Positions 15,766-44,582 of a stretch of DNA of 64,000 nucleotides are shown piece by piece. This stretch comes from Desulfosudis oleivorans. Its GTDB lineage: Bacteria; Desulfobacterota; Desulfobacteria; Desulfobacterales; SURF-7. The stretch covers positions 1-64,000 of the forward strand of contig DYJC01000014.1 in assembly GCA_020723305.1 (NCBI GenBank), in the 5' to 3' direction. The translations under genes and the position numbers were made by a program. Position 1 is the stretch's first letter. The number at the start of each line of letters is the position of its first letter. The notes under the pieces were generated by a model, which saw only the letters and a list, made by a program, of their open reading frames with translations, did not search any database and was not told where the DNA came from.

Positions 15766-16512
15766 ATGAATTCCAATGAAGCCATTATCAATCCGATCCG
15801 GAGCCCAAGGTCTCCGGATCCCGGATCTCTGGTAATTCTGGTCTCATCCAGGAAGGATATGACAGCACTCTGTTCACTACTACAGATGAAACCGGATCAT
15901 TCTTTTGGTTTTATGATGAGCCGGATCTGCACTTCTATCAGTGAAAACCATCATTTTTCGGTGGTTGGACCGATGGTCGGGGCTCCGTATGCTGCGATCC
16001 TTTTTGAAAACCTGATTGCATGGGGAGCACGGAAGTTTATTTTTTTCGGACTTTGCGGGTCCATCTCTCCAAATGTTAAGATTGGAGACATCATTCTGCC
16101 GACTGGGTCTTTCGTACAGGAGGGCACCTCTCTGCATTATGGAAAGAAAACGGGAGAGGTTTCTTATTGTTCAAAAGATATCCTTTTACTGCTGAAAACG
16201 GCATTTGAAGAAGAACCACTTGTGTTTCAGGAAGGGCTTGTATGGACAACCGATGCGGTTTTTCGGGAAACAAAGGAACTGGTTTGCACCTATCAGGGGA
16301 AAAATGCCTTGGGTGTTGAAATGGAGCTTTCAGCCCTTTTCACCATCGGAAATTATCGTAGTGTAGACATTGGAGCTGCCCTTGTGGTATCGGACGAATT
16401 GTCCACCTTTCATTGGAAGCCAGGGTTTGGAGAAGTTTCTTTTAAGGAGCAATGCAAAGCAGTACAAAGGACGATTTCGAAGTTATGTCTGACATTTCAG
16501 CCAATGAAATAA
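15766..16512 (+). CDS. Nucleoside phosphorylase-like protein (PNP_UDP_1)
   Basis: Member of the purine/uridine phosphorylase family, 248 residues. Visible signatures: the phosphate-site region VGPMVGAPYAAILFENLIAWG, the strand-glycine segment FFGLCGSISPNVKIGDIILP near residue 90-110, and the nucleoside-binding NALGVEMELSALFTIG followed by LVVSDEL. The ME-ME/SD-EL pattern is the family's ribose and base site. The substrate (uridine, MTA or other) cannot be told. Its 3' end overlaps the ligase gene by 28 nt. The N-terminal ~20 residues are not conserved-looking, so a later start is possible. Confidence 0.75.
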   Translation: MNSNEAIINPIRSPRSPDPGSLVILVSSRKDMTALCSLLQMKPDHSFGFMMSRICTSISENHHFSVVGPMVGAPYAAILFENLIAWGARKFIFFGLCGSISPNVKIGDIILPTGSFVQEGTSLHYGKKTGEVSYCSKDILLLLKTAFEEEPLVFQEGLVWTTDAVFRETKELVCTYQGKNALGVEMELSALFTIGNYRSVDIGAALVVSDELSTFHWKPGFGEVSFKEQCKAVQRTISKLCLTFQPMK

Positions 16513-18344
16513 AACAGCTCCTCAATCAACTGGAGATTTATAATTCCGCCTATCGCAAGGGAAAGCCGTTGATCAGTGATGTTGAGTATGATCAGCTGGT
16601 AGAAAAGCTCCGGTCATTCAACCCATCCCATCCTTTTTTGAACAGAGTCGAACCGGAATCATTTGAGAGCAAAAAGGAGGTTCGACATCCTGTCCCCATG
16701 CTTTCCATTGAAAAAGCATATTCCCTGGAAGCCCTTGAACGATTTATCAATCGTGTACAAAAAGAAGCTTCGGAGATCGGAATATCGGATATTCGTTTCT
16801 TGGTAACTCCAAAGCTGGACGGGCTTGCCGGACGGGATGATGGAGAAATTTTTGCATCCAGGGGAAATGGCGAGGTCGGTTATGAGATCAGCAGTGCATT
16901 TGAGAAGGGAATTATTCCTCTTGGCGGCCGAGGCCGAGGGATCGGTGAAATCGTTATCAAGAAATCCTATTTTGAAGAGCATTTATCCGGCCATTTCGAA
17001 CACCCCCGGAACCTGGTGGTTGGAATCATCAATTCTGATAAATTGAATGAATTCGCAGTCAAGGCCATAGAAGACAAGGCTATATTTTTTGTGCCCTATG
17101 CGGAGTTGGAATCATGGATCGGAACCCCGGATGAGCTGCTGAATCAGATCGAAGAGGTAACCAGGATGCTTTCAGCCAAAACCGATTATCCTATGGATGG
17201 AATGGTTGCCGGCGTGACGGATGAGAAAGTTCGGGAGCATATGGGATCGACTGCACATCACTACCGATGGCAGATTGCCATTAAAACAAAAGGTGAAACC
17301 GCAGTCACCCGGGTGGAAAAGCTGGTCTGGCAGGTGGGGAGAACCGGCAATATAACGCCGGTGATGGAAGTTATGCCGATATTTCTTTCCGGTGCAACAA
17401 TCCGAAGGGTTACGGCACACAATGCCGGAAAAATAAGAGATGAAAAAATAGGCATAGGCGCGAAGATTGAGGTCATACGAAGCGGAGAGGTCATCCCCAA
17501 GCTGGAAAAAGTGATCTCGCCCTCTGATCAGATTGCGCTTCCAGGATGTTGCCCTTCCTGCAATTCATCCCTTGAATGGGATAATGATTTTTTAAAGTGT
17601 ATGGCCTCTTCTTGCCCGGCTCAGATAGAGCAAGGAATTATTCATTTTTTCAAAACTCTGGGAACCGCGGAATGGTTTGGTATCAAGACGGTTCAGAAGC
17701 TGGTGAAGGATGGATTTGACAGTCTTGTAAAAATCTATGCCATGACAGAGCAGGATTTTCTGGACATCGGATTTGGACCGGTGCAATCAAAAAATTTATG
17801 GAATGCCATACAGACAAGTATAAAAAAACCTGTAGAAGATTGGCGGTTTCTCGCAGCTTTCGGGGTTCCGGACCTGGGTACTGGGGATAGCCGGAAACTT
17901 TTATCCCATATCCGTCTGGAAGACCTTGGGAAAATCCGGAAAGAGGAACTTACTGAGATTCATGGCTTTGGTGAGAAGACCGGTGAATCCATACAAAAGG
18001 GAATTGAAAAGATATGGGACACCATAAAACATATGCTGAATATGGGCTTTACACTGGAAAAAACCCCCCTGGAAAATGAAAAAATAACAATAGGGAGCCC
18101 TATTGCCGGGAAAGGGATTGTGTTTACCGGTAAAATGAAAAAAGGCAGCCGGGAAGATATGCAGATTCATGCACGAAAGCTCGGTGCCAATGTTCAAACA
18201 ACGGTAAGTGGAAAAACGGATTATCTGGTATGTGGTGAAGATGTGGGGGATAGCAAGATCAGAAAGGCCCAGACGGTTAATGTGAAAATAATTACGGAAG
18301 AAGAATATTTTCAAATTGTTGGAAGATTGAATACCACTTCATAA
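16485..18344 (+). CDS. ligA: Divergent NAD-dependent DNA ligase (LigA family)
   Basis: About 619 residues from the ATG at 16485, a little shorter than typical LigA (~670). Domains: Ia (LISDVEYDQLVEKL, then HPVPMLSIEKAYSLEAL), adenylation domain with catalytic PKLDGLAG (Lys about 110), SRGNGEVGY, IGEIVI, HPRNLVVG, DGMVAGV; OB fold with WQVGRTGNITPVMEV and RSGEVIP; a four-Cys zinc finger near 354-380 (CCPSC...CMASSC); HhH domain; BRCT from about 540 (GKGIVFTGKM). The signatures are drifted: the position two before the catalytic Lys is Thr where E. coli has Glu113, and TRGDG is SRGNG. It may be a secondary ligase. An in-frame ATG at 16452 would lengthen the overlap with the previous gene. Confidence 0.85.
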   Translation: MSDISANEIKQLLNQLEIYNSAYRKGKPLISDVEYDQLVEKLRSFNPSHPFLNRVEPESFESKKEVRHPVPMLSIEKAYSLEALERFINRVQKEASEIGISDIRFLVTPKLDGLAGRDDGEIFASRGNGEVGYEISSAFEKGIIPLGGRGRGIGEIVIKKSYFEEHLSGHFEHPRNLVVGIINSDKLNEFAVKAIEDKAIFFVPYAELESWIGTPDELLNQIEEVTRMLSAKTDYPMDGMVAGVTDEKVREHMGSTAHHYRWQIAIKTKGETAVTRVEKLVWQVGRTGNITPVMEVMPIFLSGATIRRVTAHNAGKIRDEKIGIGAKIEVIRSGEVIPKLEKVISPSDQIALPGCCPSCNSSLEWDNDFLKCMASSCPAQIEQGIIHFFKTLGTAEWFGIKTVQKLVKDGFDSLVKIYAMTEQDFLDIGFGPVQSKNLWNAIQTSIKKPVEDWRFLAAFGVPDLGTGDSRKLLSHIRLEDLGKIRKEELTEIHGFGEKTGESIQKGIEKIWDTIKHMLNMGFTLEKTPLENEKITIGSPIAGKGIVFTGKMKKGSREDMQIHARKLGANVQTTVSGKTDYLVCGEDVGDSKIRKAQTVNVKIITEEEYFQIVGRLNTTS

Positions 18345-18955: not shown

Positions 18956-20164
18956 TTATTTATATCGTCCGACAATGGATATCGCATTTACATTGGAAAA
19001 CGGAAAACCCCCCAGATTGTGTGTCAGGCCAATGTTCGCGTTGCTAAGCTGCCTGTTCCCGGCTTTTCCCAAAAGCTGGAGATACATTTCGTAAAGCATT
19101 CGAAGTCCGGATGCGCCGATTGGGTGTCCAAAACATTTCAGGCCACCGTCAATCTGACAGGGAATCTTGCCATCTGCATTAAAAAAACCATCCATGACAT
19201 CTTTGGTTGCCCCACCTTCCGGAGAGATAAAAAGATCTTCATAGGTTACAAATTCGGTAATGGAGAAGCAGTCATGAACTTCAAACATGGAGATTTCTTC
19301 TCTTGGATTTTGAATGCCGGCCTCCTGATAGGCTCGTTTTGCCGCCTGTCTGGTTGTGGCAAAATAGGAACCATCCCAGTCTTTATATCCCTGCTCCTGA
19401 CCGTTACTGACAGCCAACTGAAGCGCTTTAACGGTGACCAGGTCTGTCTTGCCGAGACTTTTCGCAATTTCAGGAGTCGTCACGATAGCGCATGCAGAAC
19501 CATCACTTACCCCACAGCAATCAAAAAGCCCCAACGGATCAGCAATGATCGGAGAAGCCATAACCTGTTCAAGGGTTACCGGTTTCCTCAGATGTGCTTT
19601 GGGATTTTTTGCTCCATTTGCATGACTTTTCACAGAAACCATGGCGATCGCTTTTTTCAGGTCCTCATAACTGATGTTGAATTTGGCTCTGTAGGCACTG
19701 GCAAGTTGTGCAAAAGATCCGGGTGCGGAAATGTTCGGCATAACCTGCCCAACCAATGAACCACTGTTTACGCTGTCCATGGCCGGTAATCCGCCATAGC
19801 CGGTGTCTTTTAATTTTTCAACGCCCTGAGCAAGAGCAATATCGCAGGCTCCGGAAGCAACGGCATAAACCGCACCTCGAAAGGCTTCTGTTCCTGTAGC
19901 GCAGAAGTTTTCTACCCGGGTGACCGGAATGTATGGCAACCTAAGGGCAAATGGCAAGCCAAGCGCTCCTTTTCCAGTTCCGATTTCGTCGTAACATTGG
20001 CCAAACCAAGCTGCCTGGATTTCGCTTTTATCAATCCCTGCATCTGTTATGCATTCCTGAAAAGCTTCGACCATGAGTTGCTCCGGGCCGCAGTCCCACC
20101 GTTCACCAAACCGGCTACATCCCATTCCAAGAATTGCAACTTTATCTTTGATTCCATCAGCCAT
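18956..20164 (-). CDS. SCPx-type thiolase (acetyl-CoA acetyltransferase family)
   Basis: 402-residue thiolase-fold enzyme expected to cleave a 3-ketoacyl-CoA or condense acyl-CoAs. The nucleophile region is TRVENFCATGTEAF (Cys about 88). The C-terminal catalytic region is GGLKCFGHPIGASGLRM with the GHP histidine near residue 350 and the second cysteine K-C-F, and HDCFSITE lies near 295. The lack of the classical second CxGG motif places it in the SCPx/nondecarboxylating archaeal-like group. It starts 1 nt after the HMG-CoA-synthase-like/DUF35 gene, with AGGAGG before its ATG, so the two are almost certainly coexpressed and may form one complex. Last gene of the cluster; a terminator follows. 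Confidence 0.9.
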   Translation of the reverse strand: MADGIKDKVAILGMGCSRFGERWDCGPEQLMVEAFQECITDAGIDKSEIQAAWFGQCYDEIGTGKGALGLPFALRLPYIPVTRVENFCATGTEAFRGAVYAVASGACDIALAQGVEKLKDTGYGGLPAMDSVNSGSLVGQVMPNISAPGSFAQLASAYRAKFNISYEDLKKAIAMVSVKSHANGAKNPKAHLRKPVTLEQVMASPIIADPLGLFDCCGVSDGSACAIVTTPEIAKSLGKTDLVTVKALQLAVSNGQEQGYKDWDGSYFATTRQAAKRAYQEAGIQNPREEISMFEVHDCFSITEFVTYEDLFISPEGGATKDVMDGFFNADGKIPCQIDGGLKCFGHPIGASGLRMLYEMYLQLLGKAGNRQLSNANIGLTHNLGGFPFSNVNAISIVGRYK

Positions 20165-20165
20165 G

Positions 20166-21629
20166 TTATACCTCCTCTTTTGAAATTACCGGTTTTGCTT
20201 TCCAGTAATACTGTATAAAACCTCTAGGCTTATCAAAATTTCGAATTCGGAATACCATCTTGACTGGTAATCCGACTCTGATTTTTCCGGCCTCATAGTC
20301 TGTGAAATCGAACATGCCACGACCTTCGTTTTCAAAGGTGATCATGCCATAGTGCGCTGGAGGATCCAACGTATAGGTTAACAGGTCAGAGGTATAGGTT
20401 TTGATTGTTCCAGGCAGGTCTGAAAATTCACAGTCTTCCTGGGTTCCGATCTCTCCGCATTCCGGATTTACACACATCTCTGATTTTGGAAATTGGGCAG
20501 TACTACATTTTTTGCACTTTCCACCGACCATTCCCAGAATCATCTTACGGCTTCGGTAGAGGGTTGTGAGGGCGGTTTTATAATTTCCTTCCGCTCTCAT
20601 CATCCAATCCTGTTGAAGCATTCCCCGATGGGATAAAAATTTGATATAATTCAGTTCTGCTTTTTTATCCGCCAGACAGCCGGAGATTCCGTGTCTGGGA
20701 CTTAGATTTTTTATTTTGTCCGTTACCTCAAACAACATGGCAACCGCTCCCTGGCCGAAAGTTGCAACGAGCAGTTTGTCGCCTGGTGATGCTGTTTCAA
20801 GGGCCAGGGCCAGCATGACGATTGGATGCGCTGAACCGGTATCACCACAAACCTTGTGCATATTGTCGGATACTTTATCAGCGGTGATGCCGAAACCTGC
20901 TGCAATTTCCGAAGGTACGCGGCCAAAAACACAAGGCATGATGAAGCGGGAGATTTCCTTACCATCCACACCGGTTTTTTTGAGTACTCCCTGAATCGCC
21001 TTTGGCACCAGTTTGCCGATTCCTTCATCCTTGATCCAGCGCTCTTCCCAGTTGTAATCAAATTTTTCACCTTGTCCCCTGAAATGATCGATAAAATCAT
21101 CTGTGATGGTATACGCACCTTTAAACTCGGCGATTACATTTTCCCTTCCGATCAAAAGAGATGCAGCACCATCTCCTGCCCAGAGCTCATGTGAATAAGC
21201 CATTTTGGTAATTCGTCGGTCACCTGCGGCAACGAGTGAATTCCGATAGTCTCCGGTTTTTACCGCATTGATCCCTGCAATAACTGCCGATAATCCGGCC
21301 CGTGTAGACCCTGTAAAGTCGGCGGTTTCTATATCTTCTTTCAGGTTTAGTGCTGTGGCAAGAATTCCACCATTTTGTCTATCCTGAAACGGCATGTTGA
21401 GGGATGAAAAGTAGGTCGCATCAATCTTTATTTTGTCAAAGCCTGCAATGCAGTCTCTTGACGCCTCTACCGCCATTGTCAGACTATCTTCGTCCCAGTT
21501 GGCCATTGATTTTTCACCACCTGCGGAACCGATGAGTCCAGGTGCCATCCAGGCGTTTGCGCCATATATTGCGCCGCGGTTTAATCTTAATCTGGGGATA
21601 TATCCACCATAAGATGTGATACCAACCAT
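20166..21629 (-). CDS. HMG-CoA-synthase-like protein fused to a DUF35 OB-fold domain
   Basis: 487 residues. Residues about 1-330 resemble archaeal-type HMG-CoA synthase (GITSYGGYIPRLRLNR, WAGDGAASLLIG, GDTGSAHPIVMLALALE). Residues 370-487 are a DUF35 module: a zinc ribbon with Cys 372, 375, 386 and 391 followed by an OB fold (YTLDPPAHYGMITFENEGRG). Aligned by eye to archaeal HMG-CoA synthase (EFACKAGT), the nucleophilic cysteine position reads ADFTGSTRAG, with Gly107 in its place; the catalytic His segment reads FIMPCVFGRVP. So the synthase domain is probably not catalytic in the usual way. In archaea, thiolase, HMG-CoA synthase and DUF35 form one complex; here two of the three parts are one chain next to a thiolase gene. 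An accessory role for the thiolase is inferred. Confidence 0.8.
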   Translation of the reverse strand: MVGITSYGGYIPRLRLNRGAIYGANAWMAPGLIGSAGGEKSMANWDEDSLTMAVEASRDCIAGFDKIKIDATYFSSLNMPFQDRQNGGILATALNLKEDIETADFTGSTRAGLSAVIAGINAVKTGDYRNSLVAAGDRRITKMAYSHELWAGDGAASLLIGRENVIAEFKGAYTITDDFIDHFRGQGEKFDYNWEERWIKDEGIGKLVPKAIQGVLKKTGVDGKEISRFIMPCVFGRVPSEIAAGFGITADKVSDNMHKVCGDTGSAHPIVMLALALETASPGDKLLVATFGQGAVAMLFEVTDKIKNLSPRHGISGCLADKKAELNYIKFLSHRGMLQQDWMMRAEGNYKTALTTLYRSRKMILGMVGGKCKKCSTAQFPKSEMCVNPECGEIGTQEDCEFSDLPGTIKTYTSDLLTYTLDPPAHYGMITFENEGRGMFDFTDYEAGKIRVGLPVKMVFRIRNFDKPRGFIQYYWKAKPVISKEEV

Positions 21630-21901: not shown

Positions 21902-22810
21902 TCAGGATAGTAACGGTCCTAAGTAGGCAAAGGATTCACCAACGCTGCCAAGACTCTTTGCTTTGTCCAGACTGGTGATTTTATCCCAGTTATTCTGAAT
22001 TTCTTCTGCTGTGATTTCTCTCTTCCCATCCCCGATACAGATTCCGGGTGCACAAACAATCTCTGTTCTGCTGAACCATCCAGCAGCACAGTTGAAAATC
22101 ATTTTGGTATCCTTGTTATCCTCTGATACAAGATACAATACTAGTGGCGTGATGAATTCGGGTTTTAGTTTTTTAAACAGATCCGGCGGCATAATATCTT
22201 CCGTGAGACGGGATGCTGCAATGGGGGCAATGGTATTGATTTTAATATTATATTTAGCACCTTCTATGGCGATGTTGTTCATCAAGCCAACCAGGCCCAT
22301 TTTGGCGGAACAGTAGTTGCTCTGTCCAAAATTGCCGTATAAACCTGCACCGGAAGCTGTATTTATAATTCGGCCATATCCGTTATCTTTCATGATTTTG
22401 AACGCCGGCTGGGTTACGCAATAAGCCCCTTTCAGATGAACAGCAAGTACCAGATCCCACTCCGCTTCCGTCATTTTCACAAGGCTTTTATCTCTCAGAA
22501 TACCCGCATTATTGATGACGATATCGATTTTACCAAAATTATCCACAGCGGTTTTCACAATGTTTTCTCCGCCTTCAACGGTTGCCACAGAGTCATAATT
22601 GGCAACAGCCATTCCGCCGGCTTTTTTTATTTCATCCACGACATTATCAGCGGCGCTATTGCTTTTCCCTGACCCATCCCGCGTACCACCTAAGTCATTT
22701 ACAACTACCTTCGCTCCTCTTTGAGCAAGGGCTAATGCATAAGTTCGACCAAGACCGGCACCGGCACCGGTAACAATAGCCACTCTGTTATCAAATCGGA
22801 TTTCTGCCAT
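21902..22810 (-). CDS. MFE-2-type (R)-3-hydroxyacyl-CoA dehydrogenase (SDR)
   Basis: 302-residue short-chain dehydrogenase that looks like the dehydrogenase domain of peroxisomal multifunctional enzyme type 2. It has the NAD-binding VTGAGAGLGRTYALALA, VVVNDLGG with the inserted GTRDGSG loop typical of MFE-2, IVINNAGILRDKSL, the catalytic Ser in IINTASGAGLYGN, and YCSAK with the catalytic Tyr and Lys near residue 170. The C-terminal extension past 230 is also MFE-2-like. Expected reaction: oxidation of (R)-3-hydroxyacyl-CoA to 3-ketoacyl-CoA with NAD. The matching hydratase 2 lies at 43.7 kb. A ribosome-binding site GAGGAGAAAA precedes the ATG. Confidence 0.88.
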   Translation of the reverse strand: MAEIRFDNRVAIVTGAGAGLGRTYALALAQRGAKVVVNDLGGTRDGSGKSNSAADNVVDEIKKAGGMAVANYDSVATVEGGENIVKTAVDNFGKIDIVINNAGILRDKSLVKMTEAEWDLVLAVHLKGAYCVTQPAFKIMKDNGYGRIINTASGAGLYGNFGQSNYCSAKMGLVGLMNNIAIEGAKYNIKINTIAPIAASRLTEDIMPPDLFKKLKPEFITPLVLYLVSEDNKDTKMIFNCAAGWFSRTEIVCAPGICIGDGKREITAEEIQNNWDKITSLDKAKSLGSVGESFAYLGPLLS

Positions 22811-22926: not shown

Positions 22927-24072
22927 TTATAACTGCATCAGTTTGGAGATGATAAATTTCATGATTTCATTTGTTCCGGCAAAAATTGAGGTAACTCTGG
23001 CATCCCGCCATCCCCGAGGAATCAAATTGGCTTCCACCATTCCGTCCTCTCCCATAATTTCAAGGGATTTCCCCAAAACACGATTTGTCATTTCCGTTGT
23101 CCAGAATTTTGCCATAGAGGTTTCTGTCTTGATATCTTTTTTTTCAATATGGTCGGCGATCAGTTTGTCTACAAATGTTCTGCCGATCTTGATATCGGCA
23201 GCCATTTCCACTAAGGCAAATTGAACTGCCTGGGATTTGGATAACGGTTTCCCAGTCCCATCTTTTTTTGTTTTACAATACGCAACAATCTGTTTCAGAC
23301 ATACTTCTGCGCCATATAACGCTCCCATTGAACAGACCAGCCTTTCCTGTTGAAGTTTTCCCATAAGCATGAGAAAGCCATATCCCTTTTCTCCCAGGAG
23401 GTTGGTTTTTGGAATCCGGCAGTTGTTGAAGAACAGTTCGGCGGTATCCTGACTATGCCAGCCCATTTTTTCGAGTTGTTTGCCTTTATCAAAACCAGGA
23501 GTTCCCGCTTCAACAACATACAGGGAAAGAGCCTGATAAGGGTCCTGAACTGCGGGATCTTTGGCCGCAACGATAACAATATCACAGAGAATACCGTTTG
23601 AGATGAATGTTTTTGAACCAGAGATAACGACCTCATCCCCATCTTCTATAGCAGTGGTTTGAAGGGAAGACAGATCACTTCCTGCACCTGGTTCCGTCAT
23701 GGCAACGGCCGTTACAACTTCTCCGGATACGCATCCGGGAAGATATTTCTTTTTCAGCTCCACAGATCCATATTCATCCAGATAGGGAACAACCACATCG
23801 CTATGGAGGGGTGCGGCAAGTCCGGTTTGGCCTGTTGCGGCCATTTCTTCACAAACGATTGCCGAATAGAGAAAATCTCCACCAAGGCCTCCGTACTCCT
23901 TGGAAACACTTGTGCATAAAAAACCATTTTTTCCCATTTTATTCCAGATCTCTCTGGGAACGATATGATCTTTTTCCCATTGATCTGAATAGGGTTTAAC
24001 TTCTTCTGCCAGAAAATTTCGAAGGCGTTGTCTGAAGTCATTGTGTTGTTCTGTATAGCGTAAAATATCCAT
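22927..24072 (-). CDS. Acyl-CoA dehydrogenase, long-chain-type active site
   Basis: 381-residue flavoenzyme of the acyl-CoA dehydrogenase family. Signatures: TEPGAGSDLSSLQTTA (FAD/substrate loop) near residue 128 and the C-terminal DARVTSIFAGTNEIMKFI. The usual catalytic Glu position in IYEGTNE is Ala here, as it is Gly in mammalian long-chain acyl-CoA dehydrogenase (IYGGTNEIMK). In that type the base lies on an inner helix after an LPQERL-like element; here LQQERLVCSMGALYGAEVCL fits, with Glu in GAEVC as the candidate base. So it is probably active, not broken. Electrons should go to EtfAB. It lies 33 nt downstream of a second acyl-CoA dehydrogenase gene. Confidence 0.9.
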   Translation of the reverse strand: MDILRYTEQHNDFRQRLRNFLAEEVKPYSDQWEKDHIVPREIWNKMGKNGFLCTSVSKEYGGLGGDFLYSAIVCEEMAATGQTGLAAPLHSDVVVPYLDEYGSVELKKKYLPGCVSGEVVTAVAMTEPGAGSDLSSLQTTAIEDGDEVVISGSKTFISNGILCDIVIVAAKDPAVQDPYQALSLYVVEAGTPGFDKGKQLEKMGWHSQDTAELFFNNCRIPKTNLLGEKGYGFLMLMGKLQQERLVCSMGALYGAEVCLKQIVAYCKTKKDGTGKPLSKSQAVQFALVEMAADIKIGRTFVDKLIADHIEKKDIKTETSMAKFWTTEMTNRVLGKSLEIMGEDGMVEANLIPRGWRDARVTSIFAGTNEIMKFIISKLMQL

Positions 24073-24105: not shown

Positions 24106-25257
24106 CTATTTCAATTTTCCGATAGTTGTATTGGCGATAATATCTTTTAATACGGTAAAATTACCCTCTCTTATCTGTAATACCTTGGCATCACGATAGA
24201 AGTGTTCGATTTCGTATTCCGTCATATATCCATATCCACCCAAAAGCTGAACAGCTTCGTTGGTGACTTCCATTGCAGCATTGGTCGCCGCTATCTTGGT
24301 CAAGGCAGAAAATTTGGGATCTAATTTGCCGTTGTCGAATCTCTGAGCAGACTCATAGGTTAGTAATTTTGCGGACTCGATTTTAATACACATATCCGCT
24401 ATTTTGTGCCTTACAGATTGAAATGCAGCAATCGGTCTGTTGAATTGTTCTCTTCCTTTAATATACTCCAATGCTCGTTCATATGCGCCTTGAGCTGTTC
24501 CGATCGCCTGAGCTGCGAAAAGGATTCTGCTTTCGGTGAAAAATTTCTGAACATTATCATATCCTTTTCCTTCCTCACCGATCAGATTGGTTACAGGAAC
24601 TTTTACATTTTCAAATTTCAGATCAGTCATGCTCATCATATTGGTGCCGAGTTTGGTACCCTGATCTGCAGTTGACAGGCCATCTGTTTTCGCGTCCACC
24701 AAGATCAGGCTGGTACCATTTATCGGGATGGATGCATTGGGGTCGGTCTGGCAAAGAACAATATAAAAGTCTGCAGAACTGCCATTCAGGACAAAAGTTT
24801 TCTTCCCGTTGATCACCCAGGAGTCACCTTTCTTCACAGCAGTTGTAAAAATGCGGCAAAGGTCACTGTTTGAATCCGGCTCAATAAATGCTCCTCCGGA
24901 AAGAGACTCCCCTTCTGCAATTTTAGGAAGATATTTGCTTTTCAGCTCATCACTGCCAAATCGAAGAATACACTCAGATGCATATCCGGCCATGGTAATG
25001 GTAATCCCCATACTGGAATCTTTCCGGCATAGTTCTTCAGCAACAATAACATTTTCAAATATTCCCAGATTTGCACCCGAAAATTGTTCCGGATAGTGGA
25101 TACCAATAAATCCTAATTCAGCAGCCTTTTTCCAGATTTGTATTGGATATTCCCGATTTTTTTCAAATTCCTGGATCTGCTCTTTGTCGAATTCTCCTTT
25201 TGCAAATGCTTTGACGGCTTTCTGGATCTGTTGTTGTGATTTGTCAAATTCAAACAT
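24106..25257 (-). CDS. Acyl-CoA dehydrogenase, short/branched-chain type
   Basis: 383-residue acyl-CoA dehydrogenase. Visible: the N-terminal helical domain with LGFIGIHYPEQFSGAN, the AFIEPDSNSDL loop (variant of TEP.AGSD), WVINGKKTFVLNGSSADF, and the C-terminal AVQLLGGYGYMTEYEIEHF YRDAK block followed by IREGNFTVLKDI, in which the Glu of REGN occupies the catalytic-base position. Oxidises an acyl-CoA to the 2-enoyl-CoA with FAD. It is the first enzyme gene downstream of the TetR regulator and is co-oriented with the second dehydrogenase gene, 33 nt away. Confidence 0.92.
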   Translation of the reverse strand: MFEFDKSQQQIQKAVKAFAKGEFDKEQIQEFEKNREYPIQIWKKAAELGFIGIHYPEQFSGANLGIFENVIVAEELCRKDSSMGITITMAGYASECILRFGSDELKSKYLPKIAEGESLSGGAFIEPDSNSDLCRIFTTAVKKGDSWVINGKKTFVLNGSSADFYIVLCQTDPNASIPINGTSLILVDAKTDGLSTADQGTKLGTNMMSMTDLKFENVKVPVTNLIGEEGKGYDNVQKFFTESRILFAAQAIGTAQGAYERALEYIKGREQFNRPIAAFQSVRHKIADMCIKIESAKLLTYESAQRFDNGKLDPKFSALTKIAATNAAMEVTNEAVQLLGGYGYMTEYEIEHFYRDAKVLQIREGNFTVLKDIIANTTIGKLK

Positions 25258-25361: not shown

Positions 25362-26003
25362 TTACGACTCTATTGCTTTTTTATCCTGAACAAATGCAGG
25401 TATCAGAATGAAATTTAAAGTTTCTTTTACAACGTTTAAATAGTCCTGGGACTCTGCACCTATTATTGGGCTTAAGTATTTTTTACCGGCAATAAAATTA
25501 AACAGGGATAGCATGACCACCATCACCCTGGCCTTTGCCTGTTTTGTAATTTTATCTTTATCCATGGCAAGTCCCATTGAAATCGCAATTCCGGTAATAA
25601 TATCAATAAAATGAAACTCAGCTATATCTTTTCCCTTTGGTTTGGTAAAATAATTTAAGAGAATCAGGTTTGTAATTTCTGAATTTTTATAAAGGAAGTC
25701 GCAGGATTCATTGATCGCAATTTCAAGGCGTTTGGGAAGAGGCTTTCCATGTATGACTCTTTCTATCCTTTTCAACTCTTGTTTTAACTCTTCCTGTGTA
25801 TCCATGAGTACTGCATTGTAAAGATCCGCTTTTTCACCCCAATGGTAGTATAGTGTGGAAATATCGATCCCCACTGCCTTGGCAATCATTCTGGTGGTTG
25901 TGCCTGAAAAACCGTTTTTGCTGAAGATTTTACGTGCGGAAGTCAGTATTTTGGCTTTCATTGAGTTTGGATCGCGCCGGGCCTTTTCAAGGGGTGTTGC
26001 CAT
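25362..26003 (-). CDS. TetR-family transcriptional regulator
   Basis: 213 residues. The N-terminal HTH is typical: ILTSARKIFSKNGFSGTTTR, then MIAKAVGIDISTLYYHWGEKADLYNAV. The rest is a helical ligand-binding domain with no recognisable subfamily. It sits upstream of and in line with the acyl-CoA dehydrogenase genes, so it probably senses an acyl-CoA and represses this cluster and its own promoter (26020-26091). No other TetR gene is in the window, so it is also the candidate regulator of the operon at 31-38 kb. Confidence 0.9.
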   Translation of the reverse strand: MATPLEKARRDPNSMKAKILTSARKIFSKNGFSGTTTRMIAKAVGIDISTLYYHWGEKADLYNAVLMDTQEELKQELKRIERVIHGKPLPKRLEIAINESCDFLYKNSEITNLILLNYFTKPKGKDIAEFHFIDIITGIAISMGLAMDKDKITKQAKARVMVVMLSLFNFIAGKKYLSPIIGAESQDYLNVVKETLNFILIPAFVQDKKAIES

Positions 26004-31199: not shown

Positions 31200-31616
31200 A
31201 TGGCAGTGTTTGAAAGCAGAGAAACAATGCATTCTGTATTGGGGGGGCTATTCGAGGCACTTGTTACTCATCCTGAGTTTGGTCCTAAGTTTGCAGCAAC
31301 TGGAATTGTCATCAAGTTTAATATCACTGACCCGAAAGATCAACTGTGGATCACACCTGGAGATGGTAAAACAGGACAAGTGATCTGGGGCGATACAGAT
31401 TCGAAAGCCACAGTTGAAATGACATTGAGTGGCGATACCTGCCATAGCTTCTGGTTAAAACATATCTCCATGCCGGTTGCCTTGGCAAAAGGCCTGATCA
31501 AGGCAAAAGGGCCGATGCCAAAGGTATTAAAACTACTGCCTCTGTTAAAACCTGCATATGAAATGTATCCAGAGCATGCAAAAAGTTTTGGTCTTTCAAT
31601 TGAGAAAGAAAAATAA
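31200..31616 (+). CDS. SCP2 sterol-carrier-domain protein
   Basis: 138-residue stand-alone SCP2 domain. The fold is recognisable from WITPGDGKTGQVIWGD, ATVEMTLSGDTCHSFWLKH and the amphipathic tail KVLKLLPLLKPAYEMYP. SCP2 domains bind hydrophobic acyl-CoAs or sterols; in peroxisomal MFE-2 and SCPx they are fused to the enzymes. Here it is the first gene of an operon with a CoA ligase, acyl-CoA dehydrogenase and thiolase, which suggests delivery of a poorly soluble acyl-CoA. Strong ribosome-binding site GAAAGGAGAGG. Confidence 0.85.
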   Translation: MAVFESRETMHSVLGGLFEALVTHPEFGPKFAATGIVIKFNITDPKDQLWITPGDGKTGQVIWGDTDSKATVEMTLSGDTCHSFWLKHISMPVALAKGLIKAKGPMPKVLKLLPLLKPAYEMYPEHAKSFGLSIEKEK

Positions 31617-31630
31617 CAGGAGGAAAATCG

Positions 31631-32302
31631 ATGGAGAGAAGTATTAAACAATTTGAAACCGACCGGTTGCTTGCAGCTCGAACAGCAGCAAGATTAATAC
31701 TGGCATCTGGCACAACCTCCCCAAGGGTCGGTGGTGTAGGAGAGTGCTCAATTCATATTCTGGATGATGAATGCGATATAGAGGATGTATGCCAGGAGAT
31801 GGAGAGGATGGCCCAAATCAAAAAAAGCTGGAATTTTTTCGGCAGGGATGCAGCAATGCTTCGTGATGCAGATGTTGTTCTGATTGCGACCTCTCTCCGG
31901 TGTGTCTCAGATCCTGCCGATATCAACTGCAATCTATGCGGGAAGCTAGTCTGTGAGTATTTAAAAAAAGAAGAAAAATTACCAGACGAACCGGATGTGG
32001 CTTTTCGGGGTCCCTTGTGCACTTTTCGGGCTACAAACATTGCCTATGCTATAGACGGCATGATTTCTCAGGCAAGAAATCTGGGGATCGACTATGGGGT
32101 CTTCTGGTCTGTAGGTGCAGCAGCAATGCGTATGAGCATTTTACCGCGGAACACAGGCTTTGCTCTTGCCGTGGGAATTTCCGTTACAGAGAAAAGTCCG
32201 TTCAGGGATGTTCCCAAACGATATGCTGAGATCAACCAACGAAGCATGAACGACCGGATGATTCAACGATTATGGCCTCAGTTTCGCTCGATTTACAGCT
32301 GA
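31631..32302 (+). CDS. DUF2148 ferredoxin-domain protein (first paralogue)
   Basis: 223 residues, DUF2148 family. A cysteine cluster C-x2-C-x4-C (CNLCGKLVC, about residues 97-105) and a later Cys in GPLCTFRATN suggest an iron-sulfur site. The conserved N-terminal AARTAARLILASGTTSPRVGG and the C-terminal hydrophobic LGIDYGVFWSVGAAAMRM belong to the family. No enzymatic activity is established for DUF2148. It is 14 nt after the SCP2 gene and followed by a diverged paralogue, so the two may form a heterodimer. An electron-transfer role with the acyl-CoA dehydrogenase of the operon is inferred. Confidence 0.82.
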   Translation: MERSIKQFETDRLLAARTAARLILASGTTSPRVGGVGECSIHILDDECDIEDVCQEMERMAQIKKSWNFFGRDAAMLRDADVVLIATSLRCVSDPADINCNLCGKLVCEYLKKEEKLPDEPDVAFRGPLCTFRATNIAYAIDGMISQARNLGIDYGVFWSVGAAAMRMSILPRNTGFALAVGISVTEKSPFRDVPKRYAEINQRSMNDRMIQRLWPQFRSIYS

Positions 32303-32420
32303 TCCGTGAGGGCGGGAAATATTTTAAATATCGTTTTTTTTGAAATACCAGCTTGTTATATACTACGAATGGATCATGACAAAGGACAAGTCACTGCAAA
32401 CGTCCTTTATGGAGGAGAAA

Positions 32421-33071
32421 ATGGCAATTAAAGAAATGTCTCAGCTTGTAAATGACGGATTAAGTCGTGCCGTTGAACTGATGGCGGTAGCGGCTCATAA
32501 CAGTTATCGATTTAACGATAGAAATACGGTTAAAATCATAACGGTTGAAGGAGAAGATCTTGAGCAAATAGCAGAATACTGTTTTTCTTTGGGAGATATG
32601 GCACCGCTGGCTGCCAGGGATGGAAGACATCTGGCGCAATTGATGAAAGAGCCATGTTCCTTAATGATTATTGGTGATAAAAGAAAATCGGATTTTAATT
32701 ACAACTGTGGCGCCTGTGGATATAGGACATGTGCAGAGTTGAACAAGGCGGAAGAAGTGGAATCGCTTACAGCCAATGGACCAAGTTGTATGTTTAAAAA
32801 TGTGAATTTAGGAATTGCCGCAAATGCTGCCGCCTCGATGGCACATCGATTGGGATTGCATTGCAGGGTCTTCAGTACTTTAGCTTTTAGTGCATTGGCT
32901 CTGAAAGTGATAACGGATGTGGATATTGTTATCAGCATTTCCGTCAGTGTTTCCAATAAAAATCCATATTTCGACCGCCATGAATTTTGGACCAAGGAAC
33001 ACTGGGATGAGATTTTTGCTAAAGAATTCCCAACATATAACCGTGGATTTATCGGAGCAGTTGAAGATTAG
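32421..33071 (+). CDS. DUF2148 ferredoxin-domain protein (second paralogue)
   Basis: About 216 residues from the ATG at 32421, which has GGAGGAG 5 nt upstream; an in-frame ATG at 32340 has none. The cysteine motif NCGACGYRTCAEL is close to the CGxCGxxxC pattern of four-iron ferredoxin-like domains, with a fourth Cys in GPSCMFKNVN. The rest parallels the preceding protein (VELMAVAAHNSY, LGLHCRVFSTLAFSALAL, VSVSNKNPYFDR), so the pair arose by duplication and then diverged strongly. Probably soluble and cytoplasmic. Function unknown. Confidence 0.82.
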   Translation: MAIKEMSQLVNDGLSRAVELMAVAAHNSYRFNDRNTVKIITVEGEDLEQIAEYCFSLGDMAPLAARDGRHLAQLMKEPCSLMIIGDKRKSDFNYNCGACGYRTCAELNKAEEVESLTANGPSCMFKNVNLGIAANAAASMAHRLGLHCRVFSTLAFSALALKVITDVDIVISISVSVSNKNPYFDRHEFWTKEHWDEIFAKEFPTYNRGFIGAVED

Positions 33072-33169
33072 TCATGAAAGCGATTTGCCTTTCGATCAGG
33101 CAATAGAAAACGTTTCATGATGGCATATGTCTCAATATCTTTTGGCAGGGTAGAAAGGGGAAATACAGT

Positions 33170-34783
33170 ATGAGTTCAAAAGCCCATTTGAATCAAGCCA
33201 TCGCTTCTCATCTTATCGAAATCAAGGCAGACGAAAAACCGGATAAAGAAGTTCTTATTTTTGAGAACGGAGATTATGATGACGAAATTATTACTTATAA
33301 GGATCTTTATGAAAATTCCAATAAAGTAGCCCGTCTTCTTTTGGATATCGGCCTGAGCAAAGGAGATACCTATGCGGTATTCATGAGGAATCATCCGGAA
33401 TTTGTTTATGCAATGCTTGCAGGACCGGTTATCGGTGCCATCATGGTTCCCATCGATCCGAGGAGTCGAGGGGATCGATTGCGGTTTCTTTTAGCAAACT
33501 CCAATGTAAAAGCGGTATTTGTTTCCGGAGAATTGATGGCCCAGCTAAACCAGGTAATTGGTCAATTGCCGAACATCAAGCTGGTTAGTGTGATCTATCG
33601 GCCGGAGCAGCAGATAACGGTTTCTAGGGATTATCCATCTCTGAATGAAATACTGGAAAAAGATTCCTGGGATTTGGTTACTCAACAGATCATGGATGTT
33701 CGCCATCCCATGCAGATTATCTATACCTCCGGTACAACAGGAGACCCAAAAGGAGTAATGATACGTAATAATCGTTTTGGACTTTATAATATTGCCACTC
33801 GTCTTGTCTGGCAATATAAGCCAAATGACATTCTGTATTCCGGGCTCTCTCTGACTCATGGAAACGCACAGGCTGTGACGTTGTTCCCAAGCCTGAGTAC
33901 CGGAACCAAGGCTGTTTTCAGTGCTCGTTTTTCCAAGAGCAGGATTTGGGACATCTGCAGAAAGTATGGTTGTACCTCTTTTTCTCTCCTGGGTGGAATG
34001 ATGGCCGGAATTTATAATCAGGAGAAAAAGGAGAACGATAAGGATAACCCGGTTCAAACGGTCATGAGTGCAGGCACTCCGACTTCAATTTGGGAAGATT
34101 TTGAGAGACGATTTGATGTGAGGATTCTGGAGTGGTATGCGGCTGTTGAAGGTGGGTTTGCTTATAAGCCTCCTGGCAAGGGGCCGATTGGATCTTTTGG
34201 TAAACCGCTACCCGGAATGATGGAGTTCAAGATCATTGATGAGAAAGACAATACGATTCCCGATGGGGAAACGGGTGAGCTGATTATCAAAATGACCCGT
34301 GGCGAAACCAAGGTAGACTATCATGACCTCCCCGACGCGTCAGAAAATAAAACACGTGGCGGATGGTTGCGAACCGGTGATATTGTGAAAAAAGATTCGG
34401 ATGGATGGTACTTTTTCGTATGCCGCAAGGGAAGCGAACTCAGAAGATCCGGAGACTTTATTCAACCCGATCATATCGAGAAGGTTATCGGTGAACATCC
34501 TGATGTGAGTGAAGTCTGCATCTATGGGATTCCAGCTTCTTCTGGAGCCCCTGGAGAAAGTGATCTTGTCGCTGCAATTTCTCCTGTACCCGGGAAATCG
34601 ATTGATCCGAAGACTATTTATGAAAAGTGCAAAGCCGACTTAGAACCAAATTTCATTCCATCATTTCTTCAGTTCGTTGAGGAAATCCCGAAAACCATAT
34701 CTGAAAAAGCTTTGGATAGAGTATTACGGGAACAGTTTACAGCAGATGCCGAAAATATTTTTAATTTTGAAAATTACAGATAA
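33170..34783 (+). CDS. Acyl-CoA ligase (AMP-forming, CaiC-like)
   Basis: 537-residue adenylate-forming enzyme. P-loop IIYTSGTTGDPKGVMI near residue 185, the AMP-binding EWYAAVEGGF near 320, and the hinge motif GWLRTGDIVKKDSDGWYFFV near 400 are present. The C-terminal subdomain has GDFIQPDHIEKVIGEHP, and the catalytic Lys should be in ISEKALDRVLR. Similarity by eye is to the crotonobetaine/carnitine-CoA-ligase branch. It activates a carboxylic acid to its CoA thioester. The substrate is not visible. Operon context with SCP2, acyl-CoA dehydrogenase and thiolase points to a hydrophobic acid. Confidence 0.9.
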   Translation: MSSKAHLNQAIASHLIEIKADEKPDKEVLIFENGDYDDEIITYKDLYENSNKVARLLLDIGLSKGDTYAVFMRNHPEFVYAMLAGPVIGAIMVPIDPRSRGDRLRFLLANSNVKAVFVSGELMAQLNQVIGQLPNIKLVSVIYRPEQQITVSRDYPSLNEILEKDSWDLVTQQIMDVRHPMQIIYTSGTTGDPKGVMIRNNRFGLYNIATRLVWQYKPNDILYSGLSLTHGNAQAVTLFPSLSTGTKAVFSARFSKSRIWDICRKYGCTSFSLLGGMMAGIYNQEKKENDKDNPVQTVMSAGTPTSIWEDFERRFDVRILEWYAAVEGGFAYKPPGKGPIGSFGKPLPGMMEFKIIDEKDNTIPDGETGELIIKMTRGETKVDYHDLPDASENKTRGGWLRTGDIVKKDSDGWYFFVCRKGSELRRSGDFIQPDHIEKVIGEHPDVSEVCIYGIPASSGAPGESDLVAAISPVPGKSIDPKTIYEKCKADLEPNFIPSFLQFVEEIPKTISEKALDRVLREQFTADAENIFNFENYR

Positions 34784-34848
34784 TGATATTTTTTCTGAAT
34801 AGTGCCAACCTATATTCCGATGCCTTTTTGGGACGAAAGGAGTAGATC

Positions 34849-36069
34849 ATGATTGGTTATAAAGAGTTGAATATTGAATTGACGGATGAGCAAAATGCGA
34901 TCAAGGAGGAAACGCATCGTTTTGCAAAGGAGGTTTTACGGCCTGCCAGTATTGAGCTTGACAAAAAAGCACCAGATGATGTTATAAAAAGTAAATTGTT
35001 CTGGGATACAATGAAAAAAGGATATGATTTGGGCTATCATACAATTTTCATTCCGGATACATACGGAGGATTGGCAACGGATCCTCTGGAAACGCATATT
35101 GTACTGGAAGAGCTTGCATGGGGAAGTGTGGATTTTGCCATTGGCTTGGGTGTCTCCTGTTTTCCTGCTTTTTTTGCATCCATGGTTCCTTCAGAACGTC
35201 TGATTGATGAAATTATTAAGCCGTTCTGTCAATGCAAGGATGCTTCCATCATTGGATGCTGGGGGATCACAGAACCGGAACATGGTACAGATACCCTTTG
35301 CCCCTATACACCTCAATTTACCGATCCAACGATTTCCGGACAGGTGACAGCCCGTCTTGACGGTGATGAATGGGTTATTGAAGGGCAGAAGTCAGCATGG
35401 GTTTCGAATGGCACGATTGCAACGCAGACCCTTGCATATTTGACAATCGATCCTTCAAAGGGCATGTCAGGAGGAGGAATCTGTATTATCCCCCTTGATC
35501 TTCCGGGTGTTCGAAGGGGAAAACCGCTTAACAAGATGGGGCAGCGCGCCCTCAACCAGGGTGAAATTTTTTTTGATCAGGTGCGGGTACCAAAGGAGTA
35601 CATGCTCGTAGATGAGGAAAGCTATGATTCAATGCTGGATATCACACTGTCGACGGCAAACGCCGGCATGGGAGCCATGTTTGTTGGTGTTGCAAGGGCA
35701 GCATATGAAGAAGCCCTTGCATACTCCAAACAGCGGATTCAAGGTGGAAAACCGTTATTTGAACATCAAATGATCAAACATAAACTGTTCAATATGTTTA
35801 TGAAGATTGAAGCGGCAAGAGCCTTGTCTCGTTCCGCCATGATTTACAACTACAATAACACGCCGCCAATGATTGAATACTCGATTGCTTCAAAAGTGTT
35901 TTGCACGAATGTATCACTGGAAGTTACCAGTGAAGCGATTCAGATTTTTGGCGGAAACGGTTTGAGTTGTGAATATCCGGTTGAGAAATTTTTCAGAGAC
36001 GCTCGTGCAGGCTTGATTGAAGATGGGGCAAATGACAGCCTGATGATTACAGGCGCGCATCATTTATAA
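34849..36069 (+). CDS. Acyl-CoA dehydrogenase
   Basis: 406-residue flavoenzyme. It has WGITEPEHGTDT, a variant of the TEPxxGSD loop, GQKSAWVSNGTIA, the QIFGGNGLSCEYPVEKFF RDARA block and a C-terminal IEDGANDSLMI with the Glu at the catalytic-base position. The N-terminus LTDEQNAIKEETHRFAKEVL is the standard first helix. The unusual EHGT and DGAND variants mark a subfamily different from the two dehydrogenases at 22.9-25.3 kb. Fourth enzyme-related gene of the operon; strong AAAGGAG upstream. Confidence 0.9.
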   Translation: MIGYKELNIELTDEQNAIKEETHRFAKEVLRPASIELDKKAPDDVIKSKLFWDTMKKGYDLGYHTIFIPDTYGGLATDPLETHIVLEELAWGSVDFAIGLGVSCFPAFFASMVPSERLIDEIIKPFCQCKDASIIGCWGITEPEHGTDTLCPYTPQFTDPTISGQVTARLDGDEWVIEGQKSAWVSNGTIATQTLAYLTIDPSKGMSGGGICIIPLDLPGVRRGKPLNKMGQRALNQGEIFFDQVRVPKEYMLVDEESYDSMLDITLSTANAGMGAMFVGVARAAYEEALAYSKQRIQGGKPLFEHQMIKHKLFNMFMKIEAARALSRSAMIYNYNNTPPMIEYSIASKVFCTNVSLEVTSEAIQIFGGNGLSCEYPVEKFFRDARAGLIEDGANDSLMITGAHHL

Positions 36070-36094
36070 TCCTATAATTGAAGGAAGGAAAAGA

Positions 36095-37333: not shown

Positions 37334-37366
37334 TTTGAATTCGATCTGTTTCAGGAGAAATTTATT

Positions 37367-43736: not shown

Positions 43737-44582
43737 CTAGGGCTGAAATGTTGTTTTTCCTTGACCCAGTATCACATTTCCTTTTTGTGTTTCCATCTGG
43801 AAAAGAGCTTCCCCATCTTCAGTCTTCCAAATTTTTGTGATCAGCGTATCACCCATGTATACCTGATCCGTAAACCGGCCTTGAATGCTTTTAAATTGTT
43901 TTGGCTCATTCTTGCAGAGTGTCTTCAGAATCGCCCGACAGCCGAATCCATATGAACACAGGCCATGAAGGAACGGTTTTTCAAAACCGGCAAGTGCAGC
44001 AAATTCAGGGTCAATATGGATGGGATTCGGATCTCCGGACAACCGGTAAATTGCGGCTTGCTGCGGAAGCGTAATATCTTTAACCGTATAGTCAGGCGTC
44101 CGTTGCGGTGGCACATTGAAATCCTTCGTGGAAGGGCCCCGATCACCACCAAACCCGCCAGCCCCGCGAATAAAAAGAGTGGATTTATTGGTAAAAATAG
44201 GACCGTCATCGTCTTCTACCGTGCCCTCAAGCCCAATGACAGCGGCTTTACCTTTATCCCAGACTTCGACGATCTTGGCAATACCTCGAGCGTTTGCATT
44301 TGGTGGAACCGGACGATGCAGGATTGTCATCTGTTCTCCATGCAGAAGGTTCATAAGGTTTATTTCAACCTTTCCAATAACTCCCAGCATCAGATTCAAT
44401 CCCGGGCAAACCCCAAAGGTTGGGATTACTTTCGGGCCTTTGGGCTCGTAGATATAATCCAGCTCATCATCAGGAGACGCCCCGACTCCCAATGCATAAA
44501 GAATTGTATCTTTTGAAGTCCATGAAACTTTAACAGGGTCAAACTGCATACCAACTATATCACTGTTTATTGTAAGTGGCAT
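43737..44582 (-). CDS. MaoC-like enoyl-CoA hydratase 2
   Basis: 281-residue double hot-dog protein of the MFE-2 hydratase-2 type. The N-terminal hot-dog half has TILYALGVGASPDDELDYIYE, and the C-terminal MaoC half has the hydratase-2 active-site motif YRLSGDPNPIHIDPEFAALA followed by GFEKPFLHGLCSYGF (Asp and His of the motif near residue 185). Expected reaction: hydration of trans-2-enoyl-CoA to (R)-3-hydroxyacyl-CoA. This is the stereochemical partner of the MFE-2-like dehydrogenase at 21902-22810. Monocistronic on the minus strand, next to a MITE-like element. Confidence 0.9.
   Translation of the reverse strand: MPLTINSDIVGMQFDPVKVSWTSKDTILYALGVGASPDDELDYIYEPKGPKVIPTFGVCPGLNLMLGVIGKVEINLMNLLHGEQMTILHRPVPPNANARGIAKIVEVWDKGKAAVIGLEGTVEDDDGPIFTNKSTLFIRGAGGFGGDRGPSTKDFNVPPQRTPDYTVKDITLPQQAAIYRLSGDPNPIHIDPEFAALAGFEKPFLHGLCSYGFGCRAILKTLCKNEPKQFKSIQGRFTDQVYMGDTLITKIWKTEDGEALFQMETQKGNVILGQGKTTFQP

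Follow-up and report, generated by a model that had tools for sequence, protein, structure and literature searches.

In archaea, a DUF35 protein joins a thiolase to an active 3-hydroxy-3-methylglutaryl-CoA synthase (HMGCS), with coenzyme A (CoA) bound where all three meet, and this complex is reported to channel (PMC6392133, PMC12329534). In PhlACB (PpATase, the 2,4-diacetylphloroglucinol acyltransferase, PDB 5M3K/5MG5), the HMGCS-like subunit PhlA has Gly115 in place of the Cys and Cys83 in place of the Glu, and the DUF35 protein PhlB holds PhlA to the thiolase-like PhlC. Acyl transfer is described as using PhlC residues only, PhlA contributing none, one continuous cavity is lined by PhlA, PhlB, and PhlC, and mixing individually expressed Phl proteins is reported to have given no activity (PMC6392133). 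Here, we analyze a 64,000-nt stretch of Desulfosudis oleivorans DNA (contig DYJC01000014.1, positions 1 to 64,000; hereafter the window), which encodes a protein that fuses an HMGCS-like fold to a DUF35 domain, immediately upstream of a thiolase. We propose, with a probability of roughly 0.75, that this pair is a thiolase with a non-catalytic pseudo-HMG-CoA-synthase/DUF35 docking subunit, working in β-oxidation.

The archaeal complex (PDB 6ESQ) has the same three modules as the window pair and is its best structural match, with the thiolase and DUF35 parts matching as well. However, the archaeal protein is a working synthase with Cys114 and Glu82 that produces HMG-CoA, while in the window the triad is lost and two of the modules are fused. 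PhlACB shares with the window pair an HMGCS-like protein without the Cys and the Glu, a Cys4 DUF35, and a thiolase fold with an active Cys, but its three proteins are separate, whereas the HMGCS-like and DUF35 parts of the window form one 487-aa chain. Moreover, PhlACB is a biosynthetic enzyme for phenol C-acylation, assembled as (A2C2)2B4, whereas the window pair has a thiolase of family NF004810 and neighbors encoding acyl-CoA dehydrogenases and a short-chain dehydrogenase/reductase (SDR). In MucABC of Streptococcus macacae (PDB 9VBO/9VBT), named an acyltransferase complex and compared here by entry titles and alignment only (24-25% identity), the HMGCS-like subunit also lacks the Cys; at the nucleophile column, MucA has Glu and PhlA Gly. 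The benzoylsuccinyl-CoA thiolase BbsAB (PDB 7PXP) is, like the proposed window pair, degradative and equipped with a DUF35 subunit, but we know of no HMGCS-like module in it.

The original prediction had read ADFTGSTRAG (from residue 103) where the nucleophilic Cys should be and FIMPCVFGRVP (from residue 229) in the segment of the catalytic His, and had listed zinc-ribbon cysteines 372, 375, 386, and 391 and a 1-nt spacing between the genes; all of these details are correct. Its central point, a synthase fold without its nucleophile, was borne out by alignment with archaeal 6ESQ, which places other residues in the Cys, Glu, and His columns (Table 1). We extended this comparison to 162 sequences distinct by their exact letters (137 from whole genomes, 12 from genome contigs, 12 from plasmid records, and the window's own), a set that adds loci returned directly by genome searches, drops one fragment (locus L013), and leaves out copies of the window. 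None of these 162 distinct sequences has Cys at the nucleophile column, which holds Leu (59), Gln (53), Ile (16), Thr (10), Met (6), Val (6), Ser (3), Ala (3), or single others. The Glu column is Thr in 142 and acidic (Glu/Asp) in none, while the His column is Pro in 119, Asp in 13, Tyr in 11, with others in the rest, and His just once, in Sphingopyxis (L107). In 39 further frames there is no Cys (three have a gap at the nucleophile column), no His, and a single Asp at the Glu column, so that an intact Cys-His-Glu triad was found neither in the window protein nor in its relatives or these frames. An intact triad masked by misalignment was considered and rejected, since the register is set on both sides by AD...(K/R)AG in several alignments. 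Judged from these alignments, the synthase fold of the fusion is CATALYTICALLY empty.

Loss of the triad goes along with strong conservation elsewhere. Both Glu195 and Arg197 are found in 160 of the 162 sequences and Trp194 in 154, while Arg84 (87%) and Asn86 (90%) are conserved among 61 non-redundant family sequences. Residues 194-198 (21036-21050) form a near-invariant Trp-Glu-x-Arg-Trp motif, the last position being Trp in 129 and Phe in 29 of the 162; the motif as such was not found in 6ESQ (Arg only), PhlA, or MucA. Mean pairwise identity over 106 paired loci is 43-45% for the fusion and 59% for the thiolase. A fold that is kept, together with many invariant residues but no triad, points to selection for something other than HMGCS chemistry.

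Domain profiles and structure prediction agree with this two-part architecture. The HMGCS model PRK04262 (NCBIfam) matches residues 1-339 with 185 bits, below its cut-off of 244, and the fusion also misses other HMGCS equivalog cut-offs (TIGR00748, 121 vs. 353 bits; TIGR01835, 27.5 vs. 360 bits); no protein of the window's genome passes that of PRK04262. Residues 368-461 correspond in Pfam to a ChsH2-type zinc ribbon and OB fold, with single-protein scores slightly under the cut-offs (21.8 vs. 23.2 and 26.7 vs. 27.1 bits), and the OB part reaches 31 bits in the genome search, over its Pfam cut-off. A profile of the fusion family matches the DUF35 chain 6esq_E (E 1.4e-17) and PhlB (E 1.4e-8). 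The AlphaFold2 (AF2) model of the fusion, built on a 49-row alignment, has a predicted local distance difference test (pLDDT) score of 88.4 and a predicted template modeling (pTM) score of 0.91, and residues 342-351 between the two domains, where pLDDT is under 50, are likely a flexible linker. The best fold match of this model is 6esq_I (Z 46.8, root mean square deviation of 1.9 Å over 337 residues), followed by PhlA-type chains of two enzymes (Z 44.5-45.6) and MucA (42.3-42.4), with the other rows among the best 50 at Z 39.0 or less. The fold search listed the synthase-like domain only, the DUF35 assignment coming from the sequence matches. A phmmer search of PDB sequences likewise ranked PhlA-type chains and the archaeal HMGCS highest (9skh_A, 1.4e-28; 6esq_I, 7.2e-26; 5m3k_A, 1.4e-24). 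With 6esq_I, PhlA-type chains, and MucA as top fold matches, the nearest solved structures are thus HMGCS-like subunits of multi-component complexes.

The thiolase, in contrast to its partner, retains its catalytic residues: Cys88 and His297 are kept in 117 of 117 sequences and His347 in all 46 aligned. It scores 688 bits against NF004810/PRK06157 (cut-off 403) and falls well short of the BbsB equivalog cut-off (145 vs. 750 bits). In the PDB, it matches 7yvy_A (5e-59), 6esq_A (1.7e-49), and the SCP2 thiolase 6hsj (1.7e-44), the matches to PhlC-type chains being far weaker (4.5e-18 to 6.6e-17; 5m3k_C, E 6.6e-17).

The two genes occur together almost everywhere we looked. We surveyed 125 fusion loci, of which 100 were picked by hand to spread over identity among the matches listed (139 of 389 matching genomes; 110 of 395), 13 came from another search, and 12 from among 52 plasmid records. 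They span Desulfobacterota, SAR324, Alpha- and Betaproteobacteria, Actinomycetota, and haloarchaea, and the plasmid loci are annotated as Sphingomonas, Variovorax, Azoarcus, Novosphingobium (two), Sphingobium, Sphingopyxis, Rhodococcus (two), Mycobacterium avium, Natrialba, and Haloferax. In 122 of the 125, a thiolase gene immediately neighbors the fusion, downstream on the same strand in 120 (gap of 268 nt or less between stop-to-stop frames, many of which overlap on paper) and upstream in two haloarchaeal loci. The other three are truncated, one by a contig end (L013) and two by N runs within the gene or at its end (L059 and L117); the genome of L117 (G221) has a 72%-identical thiolase elsewhere, and in that of L059 (G267) the only thiolase at E under 1e-60 adjoins its second fusion. 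For the converse test, which has many loci in common with the first, we started from the 83 places that exceed the NF004810 cut-off (found among 148 genomes of the phylum, with a match at E 1e-100 in 53) and covered 82, leaving out one at a contig start (genome G463, contig C101); the thiolase of L248 is also at a contig start, which leaves 81 informative places. A fusion lies upstream of the thiolase in 79 of these, 77 times as the fusion itself and twice as its SDR-SCP2 tail. Eight thiolases score below the cut-off; a distant fusion accompanies four of them, two have just a DUF35 protein, and the last two lack both. NF004810 also has a match in the control genome of Caulobacter vibrioides. 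Chance adjacency was rejected, as seven thiolase-like places in a 5.4-Mb genome put the odds near 1 in 700 for each gene, assuming a density of about one gene per kb. Mirror-tree correlations (r 0.84 and 0.87) were not used as support because shared ancestry alone yields such values.

In 28 of the 125 loci, the fusion frame runs on into an SDR domain, which is followed by SCP2 in 24. Of four such long proteins searched against Pfam, three have both SDR and SCP2, and the other (L042) is encoded by a gene cut by N. The resulting HMGCS-like-DUF35-SDR(-SCP2) proteins of ~800-970 aa (L054, L055, L058, and L060 among others) are usually near MaoC-SDR(-SCP2) proteins, forming paired multidomain β-oxidation proteins in Desulfobacterota. 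Within the stretches fetched around the 28 loci, a fused MaoC-SDR is present in 23 and MaoC-SDR-SCP2 in 18. This long architecture resembles peroxisomal MFE-2 and SCPx. More generally, neighbors of the relatives encode acyl-CoA dehydrogenases, SDR, MaoC, ligases, or electron-transfer flavoprotein (ETF).

One relative lies in a setting that has already been described. The edc cluster of Novosphingobium tardaugens, an aerobic steroid pathway unlike the window cluster, contains an "HMG-CoA synthase," EGO55_13555, beside a thiolase, a dehydrogenase, and an acyl-CoA dehydrogenase (PMC7793797). In Novosphingobium sp. ES2-1 (L113), the gene order matches that of edc with one extra small gene: acyl-CoA dehydrogenase, dehydrogenase, fusion, thiolase, hydratases, lipid-transfer protein, OB-fold/ChsH2-like protein, and P450. 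The ES2-1 fusion is 27% identical to that of the window and has Leu at the nucleophile column, and the adjacent thiolase passes NF004810 (415 vs. 403). This gene order suggests that EGO55_13555 is the same fusion protein, and the pseudo-synthase family would offer a likely answer for the puzzling, unassigned "HMG-CoA synthase" of the estrogen-degradation cluster.

How might such a pair work? We propose that both genes encode one enzyme, in which the thiolase would be the catalytic subunit, cleaving 3-ketoacyl-CoA at Cys88. By analogy with the archaeal complex and PhlACB, the DUF35 arm would dock on the thiolase and tie it to a synthase-like dimer that performs no chemistry, and this dimer probably walls off, completes, or shapes the CoA/substrate tunnel of the thiolase. 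In the long relatives, the dimer would also bear an SDR and mostly SCP2, bringing the last two steps of β-oxidation into one particle. The physical complex, the tunnel or holding role, and the catabolic direction are what we infer from these comparisons. In a bolder version, which we consider doubtful, the pseudo-synthase would retain, as a parking place, the CoA site that is shared within the archaeal complex, and 3-ketoacyl-CoA made by an attached or neighboring SDR would enter the thiolase unreleased; once MaoC-SDR-SCP2 is added as a partner, the steps of hydration, oxidation, and thiolysis would take place in one peroxisome-like β-oxidation particle in anaerobic and steroid-degrading bacteria. 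Considering the PhlA precedent, which the original prediction did not name, the scaffold idea is in itself not new. What is new here is the HMGCS-DUF35 fusion, its catabolic setting, its breadth, and the likely answer for edc; a literature search, largely without subscription papers, found no description of the fusion as a thiolase scaffold. If true, the docking reading would correct pathway reconstructions and make scaffold versus channel directly testable, and the archaeal complex may have been re-used repeatedly as a docking device once synthase chemistry was lost.

Several observations weigh against this proposal. In 15 of the 162 relatives, a Cys stands one residue before the nucleophile column. 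While the flanking AD...(K/R)AG fixes the register, which is why we do not take this Cys as the nucleophile, its presence, together with the frequent Thr and Pro in the Glu and His columns, respectively, leaves room for other chemistry. As for pairing, one of the 79 upstream fusions is 1.6 kb from its thiolase (L277/L295, genome G423), and the two thiolases outside the 79 both belong to a single genome, G478. This genome, a natural case of partly separated partners, has four fusions and as many NF004810 thiolases: two pairs adjoin, and a third is split by 5.9 kb, with the fusion upstream (L293); the remaining thiolase (L294, contig C1) has no fusion, and the remaining fusion (L296, contig C5, 34% identical) no thiolase, in the 8 kb to each side. 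Pairing is therefore a strong rule that has exceptions: a thiolase adjoins the fusion at all untruncated loci of the first survey, two distant homologues have it 1.6 and 5.9 kb downstream, and a homologue without any thiolase neighbor, which the original prediction had named as counting against it, occurs once (L296). Two separate enzymes acting in the same pathway could likewise have neighboring genes. A β-oxidation setting, in turn, is not established for each short-form locus, as a similarity search of the surroundings of these 97 loci gave only partial counts (SDR at 43, acyl-CoA dehydrogenase at 25, ligase at 19, MaoC at 16). Finally, PpATase is described as lacking the CoA-binding residues of the archaeal complex (PMC6392133), and in an assay of Shy-Sal an outside enzyme could reach 93% of the intermediate, with no significant channeling reported (PMC12329534), so that a CoA-holding or channeling role should not be assumed. 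The original prediction, which gave the synthase fold a scaffold or CoA-channeling role, thus stands in part: judged from triad loss and pairing, conversion of this fold into a non-catalytic thiolase partner is well supported, with rare neighborhood exceptions.

Among other explanations, the one that survives best, although we consider it unlikely, is that the HMGCS-like domain catalyzes a step immediately preceding or following that of the thiolase by a new chemistry that needs no Cys, such as hydrolysis of a CoA ester or an acyl shift. The strong conservation of the fold, of Trp194, Glu195, Arg197, Arg84, and Asn86, and of Thr at the Glu column would fit this, as would the homologue that stands without a nearby thiolase. 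However, the nucleophile and His columns are variable and offer no consistent catalytic set, and PhlA, among the nearest relatives, is reported to give no reaction residues (PMC6392133). We find it improbable that the pair is a biosynthetic C-acyltransferase of the PhlACB/MucABC kind rather than a degradative thiolase. The same three modules and the presence of PhlA and MucA among the best sequence and fold matches speak for it, but the window cluster has two acyl-CoA dehydrogenases and an SDR, relatives lie beside β-oxidation-type genes, including an estrogen-degradation-type cluster, and the NF004810 thiolase matches 7yvy_A, 6esq_A, and 6hsj far better than PhlC-type chains. A decaying HMGCS/thiolase operon left without present function would explain the loss of every catalytic residue but is very hard to reconcile with mostly intact frames, a zinc site kept in 160 of 162 sequences, a fold kept across phyla, and thiolase pairing in nearly all informative cases.

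The proposed docking subunit is encoded in a co-directional minus-strand cluster (26003 down to 18956), in the order TetR, two acyl-CoA dehydrogenases, SDR, fusion, and thiolase (Table 1). The SDR is of the domain kind found fused to the C terminus of the long relatives. Base 20165 alone separates the fusion stop codon from the thiolase ATG, and this spacing, with the thiolase ribosome-binding site inside the fusion gene, is a layout typical of co-produced subunits. Outside this operon, the MaoC hydratase shares 37-41% identity with the corresponding part of the MaoC-SDR(-SCP2) proteins encoded close to long relatives, and the SDR, MaoC, and SCP2 of the window may act jointly as separate pieces.

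Table 1. Positions in the window of the gene pair, its key residues, and associated genes
Feature	Position	Strand	Basis or remark
Thiolase, 402 aa	18956..20164	minus	NCBIfam NF004810/PRK06157
Thiolase catalytic residues	Cys88 19901-19903; His297 19274-19276; His347 of GHP 19124-19126	minus	
Thiolase ribosome-binding site AAGAGGAGGT	20170..20179	minus	Within 3' end of fusion gene
HMGCS-like/DUF35 fusion protein	20166..21629	minus	487 aa
DUF35 domain (zinc ribbon + OB fold), residues 352-487	20169..20576	minus	
Zinc-ribbon cysteines 372, 375, 386, 391	20457..20516	minus	Cys4 kept in 160/162
HMG-CoA-synthase-like domain (putative pseudoenzyme), residues 1-341	20607..21629	minus	PRK04262 below cut-off; 6esq_I Z 46.8
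Pro232, catalytic His column (His of HQPNGK in 6esq_I)	20934..20936	minus	6esq_I alignment
Thr109, nucleophilic Cys column (6ESQ Cys114)	21303..21305	minus	6esq_I alignment
Leu77, catalytic Glu column (6ESQ Glu82)	21399..21401	minus	6esq_I alignment
SDR, 3-hydroxyacyl-CoA dehydrogenase candidate	21902..22810	minus	Domain search
Acyl-CoA dehydrogenase	22927..24072	minus	Domain search
Acyl-CoA dehydrogenase	24106..25257	minus	Domain search
TetR-family regulator, cluster head	25362..26003	minus	TetR near several relatives too
Free-standing SCP2 protein, putative counterpart of long relatives' last domain	31200..31616	plus	Proposed link
MFE-2-type MaoC hydratase, candidate same-pathway hydratase	43737..44582	minus	Outside operon; proposed link

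The window's genome has seven thiolase-like and three DUF35 places, with the pseudo-synthase at only one of them. On contig C41 (L052, 1393-3029), a 145-aa DUF35 protein and a thiolase form a BbsAB-like pair. On contig C1 (L051, 158-2655), a thiolase-like protein in which Tyr occupies the His297 column is directly followed by a protein of 438 aa, whose N-terminal part is a DUF35 and whose C-terminal part resembles, by eye, an enoyl-CoA hydratase. This pair recalls the Ltp2/Sal aldolase-hydratase pairs, but its hydratase would be of the crotonase rather than the MaoC type. Another OB-fold protein, IpfE, pairs with IpfD according to a paper on ibuprofen.

Elsewhere in the window, a second cluster (31200-38167) encodes SCP2, two DUF2148 ferredoxin-domain proteins, a ligase, an acyl-CoA dehydrogenase, a thiolase beside which no DUF35 gene was seen, and an SDR. 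An acetyl-CoA hydrolase/transferase is fused to a GNAT acetyltransferase domain at 61344-63221, and a GMC oxidoreductase (50563-52164) lies near acyl-ligase-like genes and an operon for ABC uptake, the substrate of which may be hydrophobic. Finally, 16452-18344 encodes a divergent 630-aa NAD-dependent DNA ligase, the adenylation domain of which matches Pfam only as two separate stretches.

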